Source of the DNA: Chlamydiota bacterium
Lineage (GTDB): Bacteria > Chlamydiota > Chlamydiia > Chlamydiales > Rhabdochlamydiaceae
DNA length: 64,000 bases
Assembly (NCBI GenBank): GCA_021772335.1
Contig: JAJFMD010000007.1
Span: 248,001-312,000, forward strand
Direction of reading: 5' to 3'
In this document: one piece after another, positions 21,069 through 58,172 of the stretch
Layout of the letters: each line of letters starts with the position of its first letter
How positions within the stretch are numbered: position 1 is the stretch's first letter
Notes under the pieces: generated by a model
Told to the model about the DNA's origin: nothing
The model's input: the letters and a program-made list of their open reading frames with translations, nothing else
The model's database searches: none
Program-made: the position numbers and the translations under genes

Positions 21069-22685
21069 ATGAAGAAGCAGTTTCATGTTTTTTTTGTCTT
21101 ATTAATGATTGTTACAGCCTGCACAAATACCTCTTCAAAACCTCGTTCGAAAATCTTCAGGATGAATATCCGGATGGAGCCTCCAACGATGGATCCTCGT
21201 AAAGGAGGTGAAATTGTCTCATCCAGCTTACATTTCATTCTATTCGAAGGACTGACTCAACTTAATGAAGATGGAAGTGTCTCTCCAGCTCAAGCAGAAA
21301 CAATTGAAATTTCTGACGATCTAATAACATACACCTTTCATCTCAAAGAATGTTATTGGTCAAATGGAGATCGCGTCACCGCACAAGATTTTGAGAAATC
21401 CTGGAAAGACATTCTCTCTCCTGAGTTTCCTTCACGTAATGCTCATTTACTCTATCCAATCAAAAATGCCGAAGCTGCAAAACGAGGAGATCTCTCGCTA
21501 GATGACGTTGGAATTACCTCACTAAACGAAAAAACATTTGTTATTACTTTAGAAAAACCAACTTCATATTTTCTCAATTTAATTTCATTTTGCGTCTTTT
21601 TTCCCGTTAATTCTAAGGTCGATACTGAGCATCCAGATTGGATGTATAACCAAAGCGAACATTTTGTAAGCAATGGTCCTTTTAAACTGAAAAAATGGGA
21701 TCACAATAGCACAATCTTCGTTGAGCGCAATCCCCATTATTGGAATGCCGCTAATATCGATTTAGATGGAATCGAATTGCTGATGATTCCTGATGAAATG
21801 ACTGCATATCAAATGTATGAACAAGGAGAACTAGATTGTATTGGGGCCCCACTTTCAACAATTCCTATGGATGCTATTCCCAATTTAATCGCAACTAATC
21901 AGCTAAAAACCAATTCTATTCCTGGAACAATGTTATGCTCATTCAATGTTAATGAATTTCCTTTTCATAATAAAAATATCCGTAAAGCTTTTGGACTGTC
22001 TATAAATCGCCAAATGATCATTGATAACATCCTGCAATTGAATGAGTTCGTCGGCACTAGCATGATACCTCCTATGATAAAGACGGTTCAAGAACCACTA
22101 TTTTTTCGCGATCATGATATAGAAAATGCGCGCCAGCATTTTAAACAAGGTCTTGCCGAGTTAAATGTTTCGCAATCAGATTTAAAAAACCTGACGTTTA
22201 CCTACCCTTTCAATGAAATCAATCATCGTGTTGCTCAAACTTTCCAATATCAATGGAGAGAAGCACTTGGAATTGATGTTCAGCTCGAACAAGTTGACTT
22301 TAAGCTTATGTATGATCGAATTGCCAAAAGAGAACATCAGTTTGCTCTAACAAATTGGTATATGCAATATACCGATCCAATGAATATTTTAGAGCTCTAT
22401 AAGTACTCTCATAATGTTAAAAACACAACGGCTTGGGAAAACGAGAACTATATTAAACTTATCAATCAATCTTTCTATGATAAGACTGAAGAACAACGGA
22501 ATAAAACATTGACTCAAGCAGAATCATTTCTTCTTGAAGAAATGCCCGTAGCCCCTGTTGTTCATTTAAAAAGTTGTTATCTGACTAAACAACACGTCAA
22601 AGGCTACCAATTTATGCCTATCGGCAATCTATTCTATGGTAAAATTCGTATTGCTAAAGAGGATGAGGAACAATCCTCTGAATAA
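21069..22685 (+). CDS. oppA: Oligopeptide-binding lipoprotein, OppA-like copy 1
   Basis: 538 residues, extracellular solute-binding family 5. It has a lipoprotein signal MKKQFHVFFVLLMIVTAC with the lipobox Cys at 18, then the family-5 core: PTMDPRKG near 38, FEGLTQLNEDGSVSPAQAE, the YWSNGDRVTAQDFEKSW segment near 97, FVSNGPFKLKKW near 200 and a long C-terminal lobe. It would bind peptides outside the inner membrane and deliver them to an Opp permease that is not in this window. The ribosome site is a perfect AGGAGG. It is the first of three tandem paralogues. Confidence 0.92.
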   Translation: MKKQFHVFFVLLMIVTACTNTSSKPRSKIFRMNIRMEPPTMDPRKGGEIVSSSLHFILFEGLTQLNEDGSVSPAQAETIEISDDLITYTFHLKECYWSNGDRVTAQDFEKSWKDILSPEFPSRNAHLLYPIKNAEAAKRGDLSLDDVGITSLNEKTFVITLEKPTSYFLNLISFCVFFPVNSKVDTEHPDWMYNQSEHFVSNGPFKLKKWDHNSTIFVERNPHYWNAANIDLDGIELLMIPDEMTAYQMYEQGELDCIGAPLSTIPMDAIPNLIATNQLKTNSIPGTMLCSFNVNEFPFHNKNIRKAFGLSINRQMIIDNILQLNEFVGTSMIPPMIKTVQEPLFFRDHDIENARQHFKQGLAELNVSQSDLKNLTFTYPFNEINHRVAQTFQYQWREALGIDVQLEQVDFKLMYDRIAKREHQFALTNWYMQYTDPMNILELYKYSHNVKNTTAWENENYIKLINQSFYDKTEEQRNKTLTQAESFLLEEMPVAPVVHLKSCYLTKQHVKGYQFMPIGNLFYGKIRIAKEDEEQSSE

Positions 22686-22764
22686 CAAGCAACTAATCGT
22701 TTTGAATTAATGTGATTTTGTGTAATATATTTCACCTTAGAGTCTTAAGCCGAGGTCATCCTTC

Positions 22765-24336
22765 ATTTTAAAATATCTTCTTCCCGTTCTTTTACTTGTT
22801 GCTGCGTGCCAAAATCAGCAAAATTTTTCTGCTCCCGATAAAAAAATACTGCATGTAAATATTGTCCGAGATCCCCCAACTTTTGACCCTCGCAAAGGCG
22901 GTGATCTTATTTCATCTACAGTTCATTACCTTCTATTCGAAGGTTTGACGCGCCTAAACCCTGACTCTACTATAAGCCTTGCTCTCGCTCATTCCGTAGA
23001 TATCTCTGAAAATGAAAAAATCTATACCTTTACACTTCGGGAGGCATACTGGGAAAACGGTGATAAAATTACAGCATATGATTTTGAAAAATCGTGGAAG
23101 TCACTTCTTAGTCCTACTTTTCCCTCCCTCAATGCTCATCTTTTTTACCCAATTGAAAATGCTCAAGCAATTAAAATGGGAACTCTTCCCTCTGAAACTC
23201 TTGGAGTAGTATCACTCGATGAAAAAACCTTACAAGTCACTCTTGAATACCCCACTCCATATTTTCTTGAATTAACTGCATTCTGCTCCTTTTATCCTTA
23301 TAAATCTGGTCAAAACCTCTGTTTATCAAATGGCCCTTTTCGTATCAAAAGCTGGCAACCTCACAGAAAACTCCTCCTAGAGAAAAACCCCCAATATTGG
23401 AATCATAAGCACGTTGATCTTGATATAATCGATATGTTGATGATTGCCGATGAAACAACAGCTCTTCATTTATTTGAAAAAGGAGAACTCGATATTATTG
23501 GAGCTCCTTCATCACATCTTTCCAAAGACGCGCTCATTCATTTTTCTGATCAAATTCAGGCACATCCCTCAATAGCTACGATGCACTGCATGTTCAATAC
23601 AAAAAAATATCCCTTTAATAATCAAAACTTACGCAAGGCATTTGGGCTTTCAGTCAATAGAAGTGAAATTGTCAAACATCTCAGCCATCAAGCACAAACA
23701 CCTGCTCTTGAACTCGTTTCACCATTTCTTAATCCTTGTCCACAACAACCTCTTTTTACAGATCATTCTCTTGAAATCGCACGCGCGTATTTTGAAAGCG
23801 CTCTAAAAGAACTCAATATTGATAATCCTTCAAACCTCAAACTTACCTACCTCTATACTTCCAGTGATTTTAATAAGGAAATTGCCCTCATCCTTCAACA
23901 TCAGTGGCATCAAGCTCTAGGAATTTGGGTTAAACTTAAGCAAGTCGATTCCAAAATTATGATTGATAGATTAACCAGGGGTGATTTTCAATTTTCTCAA
24001 AGTACAATTTATCCCCAATACAACGATCCAATGAGTGTTTTAGAGCGTTTAAAATATGCGGATGTTCATAAAAACTATACTCAGTGGGAAAAAAAAGAAT
24101 ATATTGATTGCCTCAACAGCTCTTATTTCATTAAAAATAAAGAGCAACGGTTCCTTCAACTTAATCAAGCTGAAAAAATTGTATTAGACGAGATGCCATT
24201 ATGTCCTTTATTTCATCTAACTTATGCTTATATTGCTAAACCTCACTTGAAAAATCTTTTTTTTACACCTGTTGGCGGCATCTATTTCTCAACATTACAA
24301 ATCTCTTTAGATGATCAAAAAGAGAACATAAAATAG
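22765..24336 (+). CDS. oppA: Oligopeptide-binding lipoprotein, OppA-like copy 2, apparent ATT start
   Basis: The homology and the lipoprotein signal extend well upstream of the first conventional start codon (TTG at 22945). In frame from 22765 the sequence reads (I)LKYLLPVLLLVAAC, then a linker and HVNIVRDPPTFDPRKGGD, matching copies 1 and 3. No ATG, GTG or TTG exists between the in-frame stop at 22738 and 22945. A GAGG ribosome site ends 9 nt before ATT 22765, and ATT aligns with the ATG of copy 3 (MLKKYFLL). I therefore call 523 residues starting at ATT. ATT is a rare but known initiator (infC). Alternatively this is a start-codon mutation in a decaying copy; the rest of the frame is intact. 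Confidence 0.8.
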   Translation: MLKYLLPVLLLVAACQNQQNFSAPDKKILHVNIVRDPPTFDPRKGGDLISSTVHYLLFEGLTRLNPDSTISLALAHSVDISENEKIYTFTLREAYWENGDKITAYDFEKSWKSLLSPTFPSLNAHLFYPIENAQAIKMGTLPSETLGVVSLDEKTLQVTLEYPTPYFLELTAFCSFYPYKSGQNLCLSNGPFRIKSWQPHRKLLLEKNPQYWNHKHVDLDIIDMLMIADETTALHLFEKGELDIIGAPSSHLSKDALIHFSDQIQAHPSIATMHCMFNTKKYPFNNQNLRKAFGLSVNRSEIVKHLSHQAQTPALELVSPFLNPCPQQPLFTDHSLEIARAYFESALKELNIDNPSNLKLTYLYTSSDFNKEIALILQHQWHQALGIWVKLKQVDSKIMIDRLTRGDFQFSQSTIYPQYNDPMSVLERLKYADVHKNYTQWEKKEYIDCLNSSYFIKNKEQRFLQLNQAEKIVLDEMPLCPLFHLTYAYIAKPHLKNLFFTPVGGIYFSTLQISLDDQKENIK

Positions 24337-24429
24337 TTATATCTGAGAAAAACTATTGCACAAGGACCCTTCTATCTTTATAGTCGCTTATATTACTCTT
24401 TATCGGTTCTTTATTGAATAGAGGTTGTT

Positions 24430-26022
24430 ATGTTAAAAAAATACTTTCTCCTGCTTTTGATCCCAGCTATCTTCTTCTCAGCATGTAATAATAAACAACA
24501 GAAGAAAGAGCTTTTGCGCATTAATATCGTCCGAGAACCGATGACTCTCGATCACCGAAAAGCTCCTGATGTTTTATCTACCATGATGGGTTTTGTCTTT
24601 TTTGACGGCCTTATGCGCCTTGATAATACAGGGAAAACCTCTCCTGCTATTGCTAAATCTTATGAAATCTCTGAAGACCTTAAAACTTATACTTTTCATT
24701 TACGAGATACCTGCTGGTCAAATGGAGAGCCTGTTACCGCTTATGATTTTGAGAAATCTTGGAAAGATGTTCTAGATCCTGATTTCCCTGCCCCAAGCGC
24801 ACATTTATTTTATGTTATTAAAAATGGAGAACGCTCTAAACAAGGACTCGTCCCTCTTGAGGAAGTTGGCATCTATGCTCCAGATGAAAAAACCTTTGTT
24901 GTCGAGCTCGAACAACCAACACCCTTTTTTCTAGAGCTAACCTCCTTTAGCAACTTCTTTCCTGTCAATAGCGCTATTGATGCAACCAATCCCAATTGGA
25001 TGACCGAAGCAGGAAGCGACTTCATCTGCAACGGTCCTTTCGTATTAACAAAATGGACCCATGAAGACAAAATTGTAGCCGAGAAAAACCCTAATTATTG
25101 GAATCAAGACGAGGTCTCTTTAAATGGCATCGAAATGTTTATGGTCAATGATGAGATGACCGCCTTAAACATGTTTCAAAACCGCGAACTTGATATGATT
25201 GGAGCTCCCATGTCTCATATGCCAATCGATGCGATCCCGGAACTTCTCAAAACTAAACAGCTGAACTACTGCCCTTTGGCAAAAACAACATTTTGCAATT
25301 TCAATGTTAACCGTTTTCCATTTACCAATAAAAATATTCGCAAAGCATTTGCTTACGCCATTGATCGCCGTTCTATTGTAGATAATATCATGCAGCTCAA
25401 TGAACTTGTTGGAACAGGGCTCGTTCCACCCATTTTAAAAGGCAATCATTCTAACCAATTTTTTAAAGATAATGACAAGGAAAATGCCAAACTATTATTG
25501 AAAATGGGAATGGATGAGCTTGGCATCACACTATCTGATTTGCAAAACCTCACCTACTCTTATTTCCCCTATGAAGCAAATCATAACATTGCGCAAGCTC
25601 TACAACAGCGCTGGAAAAACGCTCTCGATATCAACGTCAAACTCGAACAAATCGACAAAAAAATCTTACTAGATATGTTGCGCCGTCGCGATTATGATTT
25701 TGCACAAACAACATGGCACGCCCAATATACCGATCAAATCAGTGTTTTAGATCGATTTAAAAAAGCAAATAATGTCAAAAACCATCCTCATTGGGAAAAT
25801 CGAGAATTTACACGCCTGATTGATCAATCCTACTATGATGCTACGATGGCAGATCGTGCTAAAACCCTAGAGCAAGCAGAGCAAGTCTTGCTTGAAGATA
25901 TGCCCTTAACGCCGCTCTTCCATATGATGTCAGCTTATATGCTCCAGCCTGAAATCAAAAACTTTGAGTACACACCAATCGGTTTCATTAATTTTAATAA
26001 AATTAAAATCGAACAACGGTAA
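24430..26022 (+). CDS. oppA: Oligopeptide-binding lipoprotein, OppA-like copy 3
   Basis: 530 residues with a lipoprotein signal ending in FFSAC and the same family-5 architecture as the two copies upstream: REPMTLDHRKAPD near 40, SYEISEDLKTYTFHLRDTCWSNGEPVTAYDFEKSW, DFICNGPFVLTKWT near 200 and PHWENREF near 457. The HRKAPD motif differs from the DPRKGG of the other copies, a sign of divergence in the ligand hinge region. GAGG lies upstream of the ATG. The next gene starts 3 bp after its stop, so it probably shares a transcript with the uncharacterised gene at 26026. Confidence 0.92.
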   Translation: MLKKYFLLLLIPAIFFSACNNKQQKKELLRINIVREPMTLDHRKAPDVLSTMMGFVFFDGLMRLDNTGKTSPAIAKSYEISEDLKTYTFHLRDTCWSNGEPVTAYDFEKSWKDVLDPDFPAPSAHLFYVIKNGERSKQGLVPLEEVGIYAPDEKTFVVELEQPTPFFLELTSFSNFFPVNSAIDATNPNWMTEAGSDFICNGPFVLTKWTHEDKIVAEKNPNYWNQDEVSLNGIEMFMVNDEMTALNMFQNRELDMIGAPMSHMPIDAIPELLKTKQLNYCPLAKTTFCNFNVNRFPFTNKNIRKAFAYAIDRRSIVDNIMQLNELVGTGLVPPILKGNHSNQFFKDNDKENAKLLLKMGMDELGITLSDLQNLTYSYFPYEANHNIAQALQQRWKNALDINVKLEQIDKKILLDMLRRRDYDFAQTTWHAQYTDQISVLDRFKKANNVKNHPHWENREFTRLIDQSYYDATMADRAKTLEQAEQVLLEDMPLTPLFHMMSAYMLQPEIKNFEYTPIGFINFNKIKIEQR

Positions 26023-26025
26023 GTT

Positions 26026-28215
26026 ATGATTAGTCAATATAGCGCTTGCCTACAAGATACATTTAAAAAAAGAAAGAAAGAGCCTCTTCTTTCAGAAAAC
26101 TCTTCATTACAGAAAGGGCCTTCTGATCTACTTAAAATTATCCCTTTTTTTGATCCAGATCTTCAAGAAGCTCCGCTATTTAGTCATTACATTTCTTTTA
26201 TTGAAAACCTTGTATTCGAACTACTCCCTCCACAACTTATGGAGAATCTTGAAAAAGCTAACTCTCCTCAAACAATTGGCCGCTGCTTCAACTCTCTCGA
26301 TCAAAATCTCCCTATTATTACCTGTTTCCCTCTCGATAAAACACCAAACACCTTCCGCTTTATTCTGCTCTGTAGCGCCGATTACACCTACGGAGTTGGA
26401 CGCTATATCTCGGATACCTTAAGCCGCTGGATGAATCCAGGCAAGCCTCTCCCTCTTTGTGCAGTACACTCTTTAAACTTCAGTTTTCGAGCGCGCCCAA
26501 AAAAAAGCTATTTCTTTCACCAATCCATTATGTGTGTCGAATCAGACAATGACCGTGAAACCATTATTAAAAATATTGAACAAATCATCCATGAAACCCG
26601 CCTTAATATCCTTTCTGTCTCTCATGCACGGAGTATTGTTGCGCTTAAAACCCTCTCATTTGATCAAAAAAAACTCGTTATAGAAGAAAATCTTGCATCA
26701 CTTCTCAATCGTTCCACCAAAGAAATTAAATCGAGCATCTTTGATCAAATGCATCAATTTCTTCTTAAACTCACTAGCGAAGATAAAATTGAACGCATCA
26801 AAAAAGAGTTTCATAGCCTGATCAATTCAAAACCCAATGTTTCCGATAAAGATATCTATTGCGAAGTCCAACATTTTATCGAACTCTTTGACGAATTCTT
26901 TACCGCCTACAGGCAACCACGCCATATCTCACGTCTGATCGCTTTTTGCTACCTCTTCCGCAAATCTATTCTTCGCGAAATCAAGCAAAATCCTAAAAAA
27001 AGACAGCACAGTATCAAACTTTTTAAATCGGAAATTCAAACCTCTTTAAACAAACGCCCTGTACTTGGCATCCTGATCACACTATCTCTTTTACAAGAAC
27101 ATGAGGTCTTTGAAGAAAAACATGCATTTGAAGCAGTGAAACATTGCCTGCCAAATGTCATCAAAATTGAAGGCTCTTTGATTATTGACCGTCGCGATCA
27201 ACACAGAATGTGTTTGCTTTATTTTGAAGTAGAAAAAAGCGATCAAAGTTCATTTGAACTCAGTGAACTCAAACAACTCCGTAACAAACTACCGCGTGAA
27301 ATCAAAGAAAGAATTGAAAACGTGATGCACCCAATTTTTATGCCACGTAACGAAGAAGAGATCATGCGCAATATCTTAATCCTCTCTGAACAACTCCAAT
27401 ACGTCAAAGATATACCTCAAGCGATGATCTCTTTCGAAAATCAATCTGCTAAAGAAATTGGGTTTACAATCATCCTACTTCGACTACTTAGCAAAAAAAC
27501 AACTCCCCTTAAAGAAGCGCTGCAACGCGCTAAATCATCTGTAAAATTTCAGGAATTTGAAGTTAAGAATGTCGGCATCATGCGCAAAAAATATATCAAA
27601 GAAGCAAATGTTTTTACCGTTAAAGTCGACAAAAAACCATTCTTGCGCAAAGACTATTCTCTAGACCTTTACAAAGCGCGTCAAATCGTCATGCAAGAAA
27701 TGTGCGCTGTCATTGGAGACATTCGCGATTTCAATGGAGGTATTCTTTCCAAACAACTCGAAGTTTTCCATGCCTTGAAAAACGCACTCTCTCCACTTAA
27801 AATCGACAATGATTTTCTTCTTGAAAACTATTTTTATTCCCTTACTCCACCTTTAAGCCGCAGTATTCTACCTCTCCATATTCTTAAAGATTTCTTTGTC
27901 ATGTTCTCAGATGTCAGTGAACACGACTTTAAAATGAAACGATATTTTTATAAAGAGCGCGCTGACGAAGAATTTTTGCTCATTGTTACAGCAACACCTT
28001 TCCCCATCATTCGTGAACAAATTTTCTCTGCTGTAAATAAAATCGAATTACCGTCTAATAACATTACCTTCTCCTTCGTTGACGTCTACGAATTCGCTTG
28101 TCTCGGCTATATCCTTCGCACAGAAGATTCCACCCAACGTTCTCGCCTTATCCAGGCGATTAAACACGTTCTTCATAGCTGTAATCATTTGACTAGCTCC
28201 CCTCCTCCAGAATAA
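26026..28215 (+). CDS. Uncharacterised 729-residue protein
   Basis: I do not recognise a family. The protein is large and soluble, without signal peptide or clear membrane segment, and rich in charged helices. An N-terminal third contains FRFILLCSADYTYGVGRYISDTLSRWM, which looks like a buried core. The middle (about 230-360) is helical. The C-terminal half has a strand-rich region HRMCLLYFEVEKSD near 400 and a module beginning YSLDLYKARQIVMQEM near 545 that includes DIRDFNGGILSKQ. The start is 3 bp after the third oppA stop, so it is cotranscribed with the peptide-binding genes. It may be chlamydia-specific (inference). Confidence 0.8.
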   Translation: MISQYSACLQDTFKKRKKEPLLSENSSLQKGPSDLLKIIPFFDPDLQEAPLFSHYISFIENLVFELLPPQLMENLEKANSPQTIGRCFNSLDQNLPIITCFPLDKTPNTFRFILLCSADYTYGVGRYISDTLSRWMNPGKPLPLCAVHSLNFSFRARPKKSYFFHQSIMCVESDNDRETIIKNIEQIIHETRLNILSVSHARSIVALKTLSFDQKKLVIEENLASLLNRSTKEIKSSIFDQMHQFLLKLTSEDKIERIKKEFHSLINSKPNVSDKDIYCEVQHFIELFDEFFTAYRQPRHISRLIAFCYLFRKSILREIKQNPKKRQHSIKLFKSEIQTSLNKRPVLGILITLSLLQEHEVFEEKHAFEAVKHCLPNVIKIEGSLIIDRRDQHRMCLLYFEVEKSDQSSFELSELKQLRNKLPREIKERIENVMHPIFMPRNEEEIMRNILILSEQLQYVKDIPQAMISFENQSAKEIGFTIILLRLLSKKTTPLKEALQRAKSSVKFQEFEVKNVGIMRKKYIKEANVFTVKVDKKPFLRKDYSLDLYKARQIVMQEMCAVIGDIRDFNGGILSKQLEVFHALKNALSPLKIDNDFLLENYFYSLTPPLSRSILPLHILKDFFVMFSDVSEHDFKMKRYFYKERADEEFLLIVTATPFPIIREQIFSAVNKIELPSNNITFSFVDVYEFACLGYILRTEDSTQRSRLIQAIKHVLHSCNHLTSSPPPE

Positions 28216-28286: not shown

Positions 28287-29123
28287 ATGCGCATCATTTC
28301 AACGATTATGTCATTTAGTGTTCTAGGTTATGGAGGATGGTGGCTCTATACCCACAACCCTGAAGTACGCTCAAAAGTAGAAGGAGTTGTCAATCGGGGA
28401 CAGTTCCATACATTAGAGCTTAACTACAGCGCTAGCCAAATCATGGAAACTCACCGCAAAGATCTTTTAAAAGACTCCCGCCATAAATATCTCGAGCCTG
28501 AACTTAAGTTCTTTCCTTATTTGCTAATGGAAGTCAAATACACAACAGAAGAAGATAAGACAAAAGAAGGAGTGATGCTCTGGGATCTCTCTGATGGAGA
28601 ACTACTCGTCAATACACGCGATTGGGAAAAAACACATGGCTTTGGTGATTTAATCAATGCCGATACCCAACCCCATGAATTTAAAATCATCACCTACTTA
28701 GCTAAAAAGGGAGGATCCACTGATCGTGAAAATTTATGCAATGCTCTACATTTAGAAAATGCTACCCTTGATGCTTGGATCGATAGCTGTAGACGTAAAA
28801 AACTGATCGTCCAATCTGGCAATCGCTACCGCATTCATCTACAAAATCCTAAATTGCATATGGTTCCCGAGACGAAGATCACCCAGTGGCTCGTTACTAA
28901 ACCTCAAAAAGATGCCCTATGCATTCCTTCCTGCTATTCTGTCTCACAAATCAGCCGTACTGCCAAGGCAGCGTTTGGTCAAGATTTTGCTATAGGTAAA
29001 ACAACCCATATCTATCTGCCAGTACACTGTATTGTCGTTGAAAATCCCGATGGTTCCATTAAAACCTCCCATTGGAACGCCCTCAATGGCAAAAAACTCT
29101 CCCGCAGCCACTATATCTACTAA
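28287..29123 (+). CDS. Uncharacterised membrane-anchored protein with a helical, winged-helix-like middle
   Basis: 278 residues. The N-terminal 25 residues form a hydrophobic anchor (TIMSFSVLGYGGWWLYTH). A middle region contains LMEVKYTTEEDKTKEGVMLWDLSDGELLVNTRDWEKTHGFGDLI. This is followed by a helix-turn-helix-like run EFKIITYLAKKGGSTDRENLCNALHLENATLDAWIDSCRRKKLIVQ near 130-175, which resembles a winged helix in pattern. I cannot name a family. A GGGATTTTT segment, not a strong ribosome site, precedes the ATG. It is separated by 71 bp from the gene upstream and is convergent with the minus-strand small ORFs. Confidence 0.78.
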   Translation: MRIISTIMSFSVLGYGGWWLYTHNPEVRSKVEGVVNRGQFHTLELNYSASQIMETHRKDLLKDSRHKYLEPELKFFPYLLMEVKYTTEEDKTKEGVMLWDLSDGELLVNTRDWEKTHGFGDLINADTQPHEFKIITYLAKKGGSTDRENLCNALHLENATLDAWIDSCRRKKLIVQSGNRYRIHLQNPKLHMVPETKITQWLVTKPQKDALCIPSCYSVSQISRTAKAAFGQDFAIGKTTHIYLPVHCIVVENPDGSIKTSHWNALNGKKLSRSHYIY

Positions 29124-55574: not shown

Positions 55575-58172
55575 CTAAGAAGTTTTTTTGCCGTTTTTAA
55601 AACGCGTTTCGGTCATCTTGCCTTCCGTATTAAAGGCTTGTTTGAAACCATTGAGCTGATCATTTGAGTAAGTTTGAAGAAGCTTGGGTTTGCCATCATC
55701 GTAGTACTTATTAAATTTTCCTTCCCGTATGCCATCGACATATTCCCCTTCAAAAACAAGAACTCCATCAGTGTTCCACTGCTGACACAAACCATTCTTC
55801 AAGCCCTTACTATAGAGATTAATGCTTGCTAGAGATTCATTTTCAAAATAGGTTCTCTCCTCACCATCAAGCAAATCATTGTGGTAAGTTGACTGCATAA
55901 AGATTTTCCCATTAGGGTAATACTGTGTTTGACAACCTTCTCTTTTGTCGTTAACAAACTGAATTTCCATTACTGTTTGTTCTTGATTGTTGAAAACTTT
56001 GCCAACACCTTCTTTTAAACCGTTTTGATATTGTACAGTAAAAATGCGGTGGCCTGTTTCATTATACTCATTGAACTCACCCTCAGGCTTATCATTCACA
56101 TAGTTGACTTCTAATGCTTTTATCTGCCCATAAACTCCGTGTGGAGGATAAAAAATCTGATGTGGTCCATTTTTTTGGTTGTTTTGATAGTGGAAAATTA
56201 CTTCTCCTCCTGTTTGACTACGTTCAAAAAAGCGTCCATTGAGTTTGCCATTTTCATACCACGATTCTTCCTGCATATTCCCATTTTCATCCCAAAGAGC
56301 TTTCATTCCATGCAAATTACCATTCATATAACCCATAATCGTTTGCAAAACTCCATTGGGATAATAAGTTTTTTGATCTCCTTCTAAGCGACTTTCCTCA
56401 TCATAATTAAGCTTTTTCATAATACAAGAAGCTTCTTCATTCTTATTTTGCTTAGGATAGAATTCTAAATGCTCGCCTATAGGAAGCCCTTTTGAATAAG
56501 TCTTAATGAATAGAATATCTCCATTTTCATACCACGCTTCCACTTTTCCTTCTAAAAGATCATCGATGTAATATGCGCGTGATTTTAATTGTTCATTTGG
56601 AAAATATTCTTCATCAATTCCATTGCGTTTTCCATTTTTAAAATGAATCACTTCTTTGAGCCCAGCACCAGCATACCAAATCTTTACTTCATCATCTGGC
56701 TTCCCATTAACATATTTTCCTTCAAATAACAGTTTGCCTTCTTGACTCCACTCATAATGCATATCTTCCATCTCGCCGCCTATATAGCGACCGCTGTACT
56801 TCTTCTGCCCATTTTCGTACGTCAACTCAAACACGCCATCTAAGACATCTCCTTTAAATTCTTGCGAAGATTGAATCTGTCCATTGGGATACCAGCTGCG
56901 GCATAACCCTTCTTTTTTACCTTGAAGATATGATTCCTCTATTGAACTTTTCCCATCTTCATACCATTCGCAATAATCACCATCTTTCAAGCTATCGATA
57001 AAATTGACATAGCTTTTTCTTTGCCCAGAAGAATAGTATTCAATTTGTTCTCCATCAAACTTTCCTAAAAGATATTGTCTTTCGCACTTCAATTTACCAT
57101 CAGAGTAGTATTCAACATATCTGCCGTCATATTGATCTCCTATTAGAGAGTACTCACGAATTTTGCCTCCATCTATTGCATATTCAACAATGGGAGATAG
57201 CAAAATTCCTTGCTCATCATACTCAGCTAAATACTCAAGATTGCCATTAGAATAAAAACGAGAATGCTTCCCTTGTGGAATGCCTTTAGAGTATCTTCCT
57301 TCACCAATTGAATTTCCTTCCTGATCGTAAAAGTGCTCTATTCCTTCTTTCTTGCCATCTTTATAATTAACAACGTAACTCTGTTTCCCATTGGGATAGT
57401 ACATATAGTGATTACCAAAAGGTATATCGTTGATGTAATCAAGAACCTCTTCAATTTCTTGCGTCTCGCAATATGCGACATAGGCAGGATTTTTCCCATC
57501 AGAGTGCAGCTGTCCGTTTACGTAGTGTTTAGTCGCTTTTAGAATTCCGTTCTCGAACCATTCAAGAGCATTCCCTTCCTTTTTCCCAGAAACATATTTG
57601 ATTTGTGCGGCTTTATTTCCATTGGGATAATATTGATTGAGTTCACCTTGCAAAAGATCATCAACATACATTGATTCTTCAGCGACTGTGCCATCTTCGT
57701 AATAGGATATCCACTGTCCAGAGCTCTTCCCATGCTCGAAATTACAAACTCCTTGAGGTCTCTTTTCTGTATAATAAAGGTGCACTTGACCGTGTAGCTT
57801 TCCCTTATAGTATTCCGCTGTTTTTTCAATATCCCCATTCTCATAAGCAAAGATGCTCATTCCGTGAGGTATAACTGTATTATTCCATAGGCGATACTCT
57901 TCAGAATCTTCACTGACAACCATCAAATCCATTTCACATTTTAGCTGTCCATTTGAATAGAGAATCATTTGTTTTACCGGCTGCTCTTCATCCGGAGAAA
58001 CTTGCTTATAAAAGAAAATTTTCTGAGGAGTTCCTTCAGGATAAAACTCGATAATTTGTGAACGCCAATTTGGTTCTTGAGGTTTTAATTTGCTAATCTC
58101 TTGATTTAAATCAGCCTTCAAAGAGGTAAAAAACAAAAGAATAGAAACAATAGATAGAGATCTTTTTAACAT
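55575..58172 (-). CDS. Large MORN/YwqK-type repeat protein, exported
   Basis: 865 residues. A signal peptide (MLKRSLSIVSILLFFTSLKA) is followed almost to the end by roughly thirty repeats of 22-24 residues with the pattern YYPNGKxxxxxxYxxGKxxGxxxxW, for example HYMYYPNGKQSYVVNYKDGKKEG. Such MORN_2/YwqK modules form extended beta-rods; in bacteria they occur in effectors and surface proteins. The function is unknown. No other gene shares its transcript. The codon pattern is like its neighbours, so there is no sign of recent transfer. The repeat number could vary between strains. Confidence 0.88.
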   Translation of the reverse strand: MLKRSLSIVSILLFFTSLKADLNQEISKLKPQEPNWRSQIIEFYPEGTPQKIFFYKQVSPDEEQPVKQMILYSNGQLKCEMDLMVVSEDSEEYRLWNNTVIPHGMSIFAYENGDIEKTAEYYKGKLHGQVHLYYTEKRPQGVCNFEHGKSSGQWISYYEDGTVAEESMYVDDLLQGELNQYYPNGNKAAQIKYVSGKKEGNALEWFENGILKATKHYVNGQLHSDGKNPAYVAYCETQEIEEVLDYINDIPFGNHYMYYPNGKQSYVVNYKDGKKEGIEHFYDQEGNSIGEGRYSKGIPQGKHSRFYSNGNLEYLAEYDEQGILLSPIVEYAIDGGKIREYSLIGDQYDGRYVEYYSDGKLKCERQYLLGKFDGEQIEYYSSGQRKSYVNFIDSLKDGDYCEWYEDGKSSIEESYLQGKKEGLCRSWYPNGQIQSSQEFKGDVLDGVFELTYENGQKKYSGRYIGGEMEDMHYEWSQEGKLLFEGKYVNGKPDDEVKIWYAGAGLKEVIHFKNGKRNGIDEEYFPNEQLKSRAYYIDDLLEGKVEAWYENGDILFIKTYSKGLPIGEHLEFYPKQNKNEEASCIMKKLNYDEESRLEGDQKTYYPNGVLQTIMGYMNGNLHGMKALWDENGNMQEESWYENGKLNGRFFERSQTGGEVIFHYQNNQKNGPHQIFYPPHGVYGQIKALEVNYVNDKPEGEFNEYNETGHRIFTVQYQNGLKEGVGKVFNNQEQTVMEIQFVNDKREGCQTQYYPNGKIFMQSTYHNDLLDGEERTYFENESLASINLYSKGLKNGLCQQWNTDGVLVFEGEYVDGIREGKFNKYYDDGKPKLLQTYSNDQLNGFKQAFNTEGKMTETRFKNGKKTS

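Follow-up and report, generated by a model that had tools for sequence, protein, structure and literature searches.

To our knowledge, very few bacterial genes start at AUU, and gene finders are blind to such starts. In Escherichia coli, infC has an ATT start and is autoregulated by IF3 (PMC5472188), while the same gene starts at AUA in Staphylococcus aureus and at AUC in Streptomyces (PMC5472188, PMC13009471). The S. aureus genes cvfC1 (AUU) and ccpN (AUA) have working starts with a Shine-Dalgarno site, and in poor medium, reporters with the non-canonical sites reached about 10% of the yield obtained with AUG (PMC13009471). Switches from AUG to AUU are scarce in reconstructions, with one among the 61,358 ancestral AUG starts considered by Belinky et al. 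(PMC5622118). Our literature search found no paper joining Chlamydia with an ATT or noncanonical start codon, or with a CUG start of infC.

AUU starts, as in E. coli infC and S. aureus cvfC1, are already known but rare, and the gene described here, the second of three tandem oppA copies (copy 2) in a probable chlamydia-like bacterium, is a possible further case. It would share with infC a non-AUG start of the AUN type and an initiation expected to be curbed by IF3 (PMC5472188, PMC13009471). However, the rare start of infC serves autoregulation, whereas copy 2 encodes a nutrient-binding lipoprotein with no evident feedback and with ATG-started orthologues. With cvfC1 and ccpN it has in common a rare start accompanied by a Shine-Dalgarno site (PMC13009471), but in those genes the start is conserved between species, is demonstrated by ribosome profiling and shows extended pairing, while copy 2 has a five-base pairing, ATG-started orthologues and a start predicted from sequence. 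The GTC start of Streptomyces sigR is likewise non-canonical, misannotated by tools and repressed by IF3 (PMC5472188), but sigR is a regulator that strictly needs low expression, and no such need is evident for copy 2. Chlamydial OppA paralogue families also comprise several family-5 binding proteins, such as the 13 OppA of Rhabdochlamydia helvetica (PMC6490308), but nearly all the copies surveyed in this analysis have ATG and copy 2 does not.

The array occupies positions 21069 to 26022 of the window, that is, of the whole stretch of 64,000 nucleotides that was analyzed, and lies downstream of rho (Table 1). From their proteins, we take the frames ahead of it to be polA, coaE, and rho. A fourth family-5 gene is found on the same contig, ca. 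90 kb beyond the array. A TLC ATP/ADP transporter is also encoded within the window and, together with the gene set, suggests an obligate intracellular, chlamydia-like bacterium. The two ORFs that follow the array (26026-28215, 729 aa, and 28287-29123, 278 aa) had no match in Pfam or NCBIfam, and farther along, on the minus strand (55575-58172), there is an ORF of 865 aa with MORN_2 repeats. In 45 rho-downstream stretches of relatives, counting only the rho strand and with several stretches stopping at contig ends (one of 292 bases, from G058, was excluded), 10 had no oppA copy, 32 had one, three had two, and none had three. Copy 2 matches PF00496 (SBP_bac_5) with 231.2 bits, above the cut-off of 32.4. 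Against the NCBIfam OppA equivalog NF011684 (cut-off 947), copies 1, 2, and 3 score 216.1, 202.7, and 229.2 bits, all below the cut-off, so the name "OppA" is provisional as regards the substrate, and peptide binding is a prediction.

Table 1. Features of the oppA array and of the 5' region of copy 2 (positions in the window)
Feature	Position	Strand	Remarks
oppA copy 1	21069..22685	+	538 aa, ATG; lipoprotein signal MKKQFHVFFVLLMIVTAC; strong Shine-Dalgarno match AAGGAGG; PF00496
Promoter-like TTGAAT-18-TATATT 5' of copy 2	22702..22731	+	weak
In-frame TAG, 5' bound of the copy 2 frame	22738..22740	+	
GAGGT, Shine-Dalgarno-like	22752..22756	+	8 nt ahead of ATT; -5.4 kcal/mol with the consensus anti-Shine-Dalgarno sequence
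ATT, likeliest start codon of copy 2	22765..22767	+	
Copy 2 lipoprotein signal (M)LKYLLPVLLLVAAC	22765..22809	+	lipobox VAAC (LVAAC), Cys as residue 15
oppA copy 2	22765..24336	+	523 aa counted from ATT; family-5 solute-binding lipoprotein
TTG, earliest canonical start codon of the copy 2 frame	22945..22947	+	within conserved domain; no Shine-Dalgarno match; in hairpin
oppA copy 3	24430..26022	+	530 aa, ATG; Shine-Dalgarno match GAGGU; PF00496

The copy 2 frame runs uninterrupted from the upstream TAG to its stop at 24334-24336, and its first ATG, GTG, or TTG is the TTG at 22945, exactly 60 codons after ATT 22765. Read from ATT, the protein is ILKYLLPVLLLVAAC, with Cys 15 encoded at 22807-22809; the lipoprotein signal and the lipobox Cys are thereby present, and both are lost when reading begins at TTG 22945. 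In frame ahead of this TTG are the signal peptide with its lipobox and the segment VNIVRDPPTFDPRKGGDLISSTVHYLLFEG, for which there are matching homologues across the family. The alignment with OppA homologues begins near codon 20 of the stop-to-stop frame, a long way 5' of the TTG. The Pfam SBP_bac_5 match begins only at residue 70, so Pfam alone cannot reveal this upstream homology. An earlier note on this DNA had stated that frame, lipoprotein signal, and homology all reach 60 codons 5' of the first canonical start, and the raw sequence and the homologue alignments agree on this. TTG 22945 is therefore probably not the start of copy 2, and a standard start rule, by beginning the protein 60 codons late, would miss its nature as a secreted lipoprotein.

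To see how rare such a gene is, we surveyed OppA-like frames in which an upstream stop could be seen, drawn from part of the matches listed (L067 showed no such stop and was left unjudged). A canonical start 5' of the conserved motif was available in 110 of these 113 frames, as ATG in 107 and as GTG at best in three, although frames counted under ATG can have a likelier TTG start (e.g., L011). The three without one were copy 2 and one gene each from genomes G030 and G011, all of them rho-downstream copies, a pattern spotted post hoc. As a control, ORFs of 250 aa or more that had three or more homologues were screened in the stretches retrieved up to that point; three of 174 were flagged, the same OppA genes, against none of 122 non-OppA ORFs. 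Taken together, these counts indicate that random noise does not account for the lack of a canonical start. Only the 250-aa control was used as evidence: with a limit of 60 aa, 108 of 519 ORFs were flagged, mostly short or antisense, and with 200 aa, 17 of 222, the 14 non-OppA cases being read as the coaE frame run backwards over the end of polA.

Candidate starts were ranked by their pairing with the consensus anti-Shine-Dalgarno sequence, which had to be assumed because the 3' end of the genome's own 16S rRNA was not recovered (model positions 9-873 and 929-1335 of 1533 were matched). The GAGG site that the earlier note placed 9 nt ahead of ATT 22765 is located at 22752-22755, and no Shine-Dalgarno match was found at AGG 22753, AAG 22747, CTT 22744, or TTG 22945. 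When the 79-nt intergenic region ahead of ATT 22765 was put through 2,000 mononucleotide shuffles, only 0.55% (0.0055) of the shuffled sequences did as well. Copy 3 carries the same five bases, GAGGU, with a spacing of 4 nt instead of 8 nt. Lipobox start models were obtained for 75 homologues (14 of 89 OppA-like frames lacked one and were excluded, and the start chooser favors ATG). Of these 75, 24 had a Shine-Dalgarno match of -4 or better, and in 15 the match equaled or exceeded that of copy 2. The signal counted from ATT has 15 residues, within the homologue range of 14 to 24 (four of the 75 at 15 or fewer). The initiation region is unstructured (-3.8 kcal/mol), like that of copy 3. The promoter-like match carries no weight, as 20 such sites were found in the region against 16.0 expected in shuffles.

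Shine-Dalgarno match, spacing, and signal length thus support ATT 22765 well as the start position proposed in the earlier note, and we hold with good confidence that this is where copy 2 starts or, if the start has been lost, where it used to. Less can be drawn from the alignment of this ATT with the ATG of copy 3, which the note had also put forward, because copies 2 and 3 are ca. 41 to 43% identical and copy 3 groups with copy 1. Since the same match, spacing, and signal length would be expected after a recent loss or a miscall, they are evidence for the position and not for function.

Our favored reading, with a probability of roughly 0.45, is that the ATT of copy 2 is a working but weak start. 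Translation of an intact copy 2 would begin at ATT 22765, aided by the GAGGT ahead of it and the unstructured leader, and the initiator tRNA would read AUU as formyl-methionine, giving a protein beginning MLKYLLPVLLLVAAC-. Because IF3 rejects AUU, the predicted yield is low, a small fraction of that from AUG, and the level of the copy 2 protein would track IF3 activity. What can be observed directly is the frame, with its Shine-Dalgarno match and no ATG, GTG, or TTG ahead of the lipobox, and the conservation of the protein body, from which we infer initiation by the ribosome at ATT 22765, its low yield, and the link to IF3. The local sequence would be the same whether the AUU works as a start, the start was lost only recently, or the consensus is in error. 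If the favored reading is true, this would be a nutrient-uptake gene with its dose set by start-codon stringency; if it is not, copy 2 would illustrate either the ongoing loss of a redundant gene or an annotation altered by a wrong base.

The first alternative, a recent loss of the start codon that would make copy 2 a very young pseudogene or a gene being lost while the other copies suffice, appears somewhat unlikely to us. Redundancy speaks for it, since the genome encodes four binding proteins of family 5, three of them in tandem, and so does the size of an array that none of the 45 stretches from relatives equals. The history of the gene also fits. In a tree of 51 full-length proteins, copy 2 joined genes of G024 and G052, from one other genus (support 98/93), and copies 1 and 3 formed a separate pair (89/89). 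These nearest orthologues (L116 and L008) start with ATG, without a Shine-Dalgarno match at it, which indicates that the ATT is derived; judging from these sequences, ATG most likely gave way to another codon on the branch of copy 2. ATT was not kept in any orthologue found. The branch of copy 2 is the longest of the three array copies, at 1.13 changes per column; copies 1 and 3 have 0.70 and 0.73, and the two orthologues 0.76 and 0.84. The closest foreign match to copy 2 in all 61 family genomes searched, in which its own genus is not represented, had 47% identity; a peptide-pattern scan of named genomes gave six loci with 26 to 29% identity, and the plasmid records searched gave no match.

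Against a loss of the start stands the state of the protein body, since 523 codons with no stop or frameshift and with normal conservation mean that any loss must be recent. Deviations at conserved columns (those conserved in 90% or more of the 43 remaining core rows, after seven divergent rows of the 51 had been set aside) amounted to nine of 90 in copy 2, compared with six of 88 in copy 1, nine of 90 in copy 3, and eight of 90 in each of the two nearest orthologues. No relaxed constraint or frame damage was detected over the 523 codons. In simulations, a neutral frame stayed open with P of 0.66, 0.228, 0.025, and 0.001 at 0.005, 0.02, 0.05, and 0.1 substitutions per site, respectively. A shortened loop (20 residues compared with mostly 32) was considered as a sign of decay and rejected, because it is also short in the orthologue L116. 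The open frame and a conservation like that of the ATG-started paralogues make an old pseudogene or a long-dead copy 2 unlikely, but very recent silencing would leave no trace.

A second alternative, which we also judge unlikely, is a consensus or assembly error, in which the true codon is canonical and one base was miscalled. The sequence comes from a single assembly with a completeness of 92.26%, every feature of an ordinary start surrounds the ATT, and the prior for a real switch from AUG to AUU is tiny (PMC5622118). On the other hand, the assembly is contiguous (nine contigs, 1.82 Mb), the neighboring genes in the surrounding 5 kb have no frame damage, and a one-base indel in the adjoining T/A runs, checked by hand, would bring no ATG into frame. 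It is highly improbable that copy 2 starts elsewhere, either at the near-cognate AAG 22747 or AGG 22753, which would give signals of 21 or 19 residues, closer to the family mode than 15, or at TTG 22945, the first start acceptable to gene finders, as all three lack a Shine-Dalgarno match and the TTG would yield a signal-less protein that also lacks the conserved DPRKGG region of homologues and adjoins a hairpin of -8.8 kcal/mol.

The two other OppA-like genes without a canonical start differ from copy 2 in their details. The gene of G030 (L112, reverse strand, ca. 2719-2736 of the reverse complement) has an intact frame after its ATT. Its 5' end reads in frame ATG-AGG-TAG-GTC-ATT, with GAGGU 5 nt ahead of the ATT and no canonical start after the last in-frame stop. 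We accepted it only in part as a second ATT case, because ATG-AGG precedes the TAG and the genus sisters of G030 (G003, G059, and G065) have ATG starts; it may represent an early nonsense (amber) codon with re-initiation after it, or else a dead start or an error. The gene of G011 (L155, reverse strand, ca. 40-150 of the reverse complement) begins within the end of rho but in a different frame. There we found no lipobox, no canonical start, no good ATT candidate, and no Shine-Dalgarno match at any plausible near-cognate start. From the ATT with GAGGU in copy 2 and in G030, the G011 gene without ATG, GTG, or TTG, and the apparent CTG of some infC genes, one could argue that rho-downstream oppA genes in the family recurrently shift to non-canonical starts, with the stringency of initiation keeping an extra binding protein at a low dose that depends on IF3, but we consider this very doubtful.

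The infC genes of the family were surveyed at 31 loci, one of which could not be parsed. Five of the 30 parsed genes (L163, L170, L171, L180, and L182, from G056, G048, G047, G002, and G029, respectively) lack any ATG, GTG, or TTG from the upstream stop up to the conserved NREIR motif. All five have an in-frame CTG with GGAG 7 to 8 nt ahead of it, suggesting a CTG start for IF3 in these genomes. The infC of the window's own genome was rejected as a precedent for an ATT start, because it has a usable in-frame TTG where most relatives start. At this locus (L041, ca. 1475-1525), the start of infC, likely the TTG, overlaps the end of the upstream frame, which presumably is thrS, judging from its resemblance.
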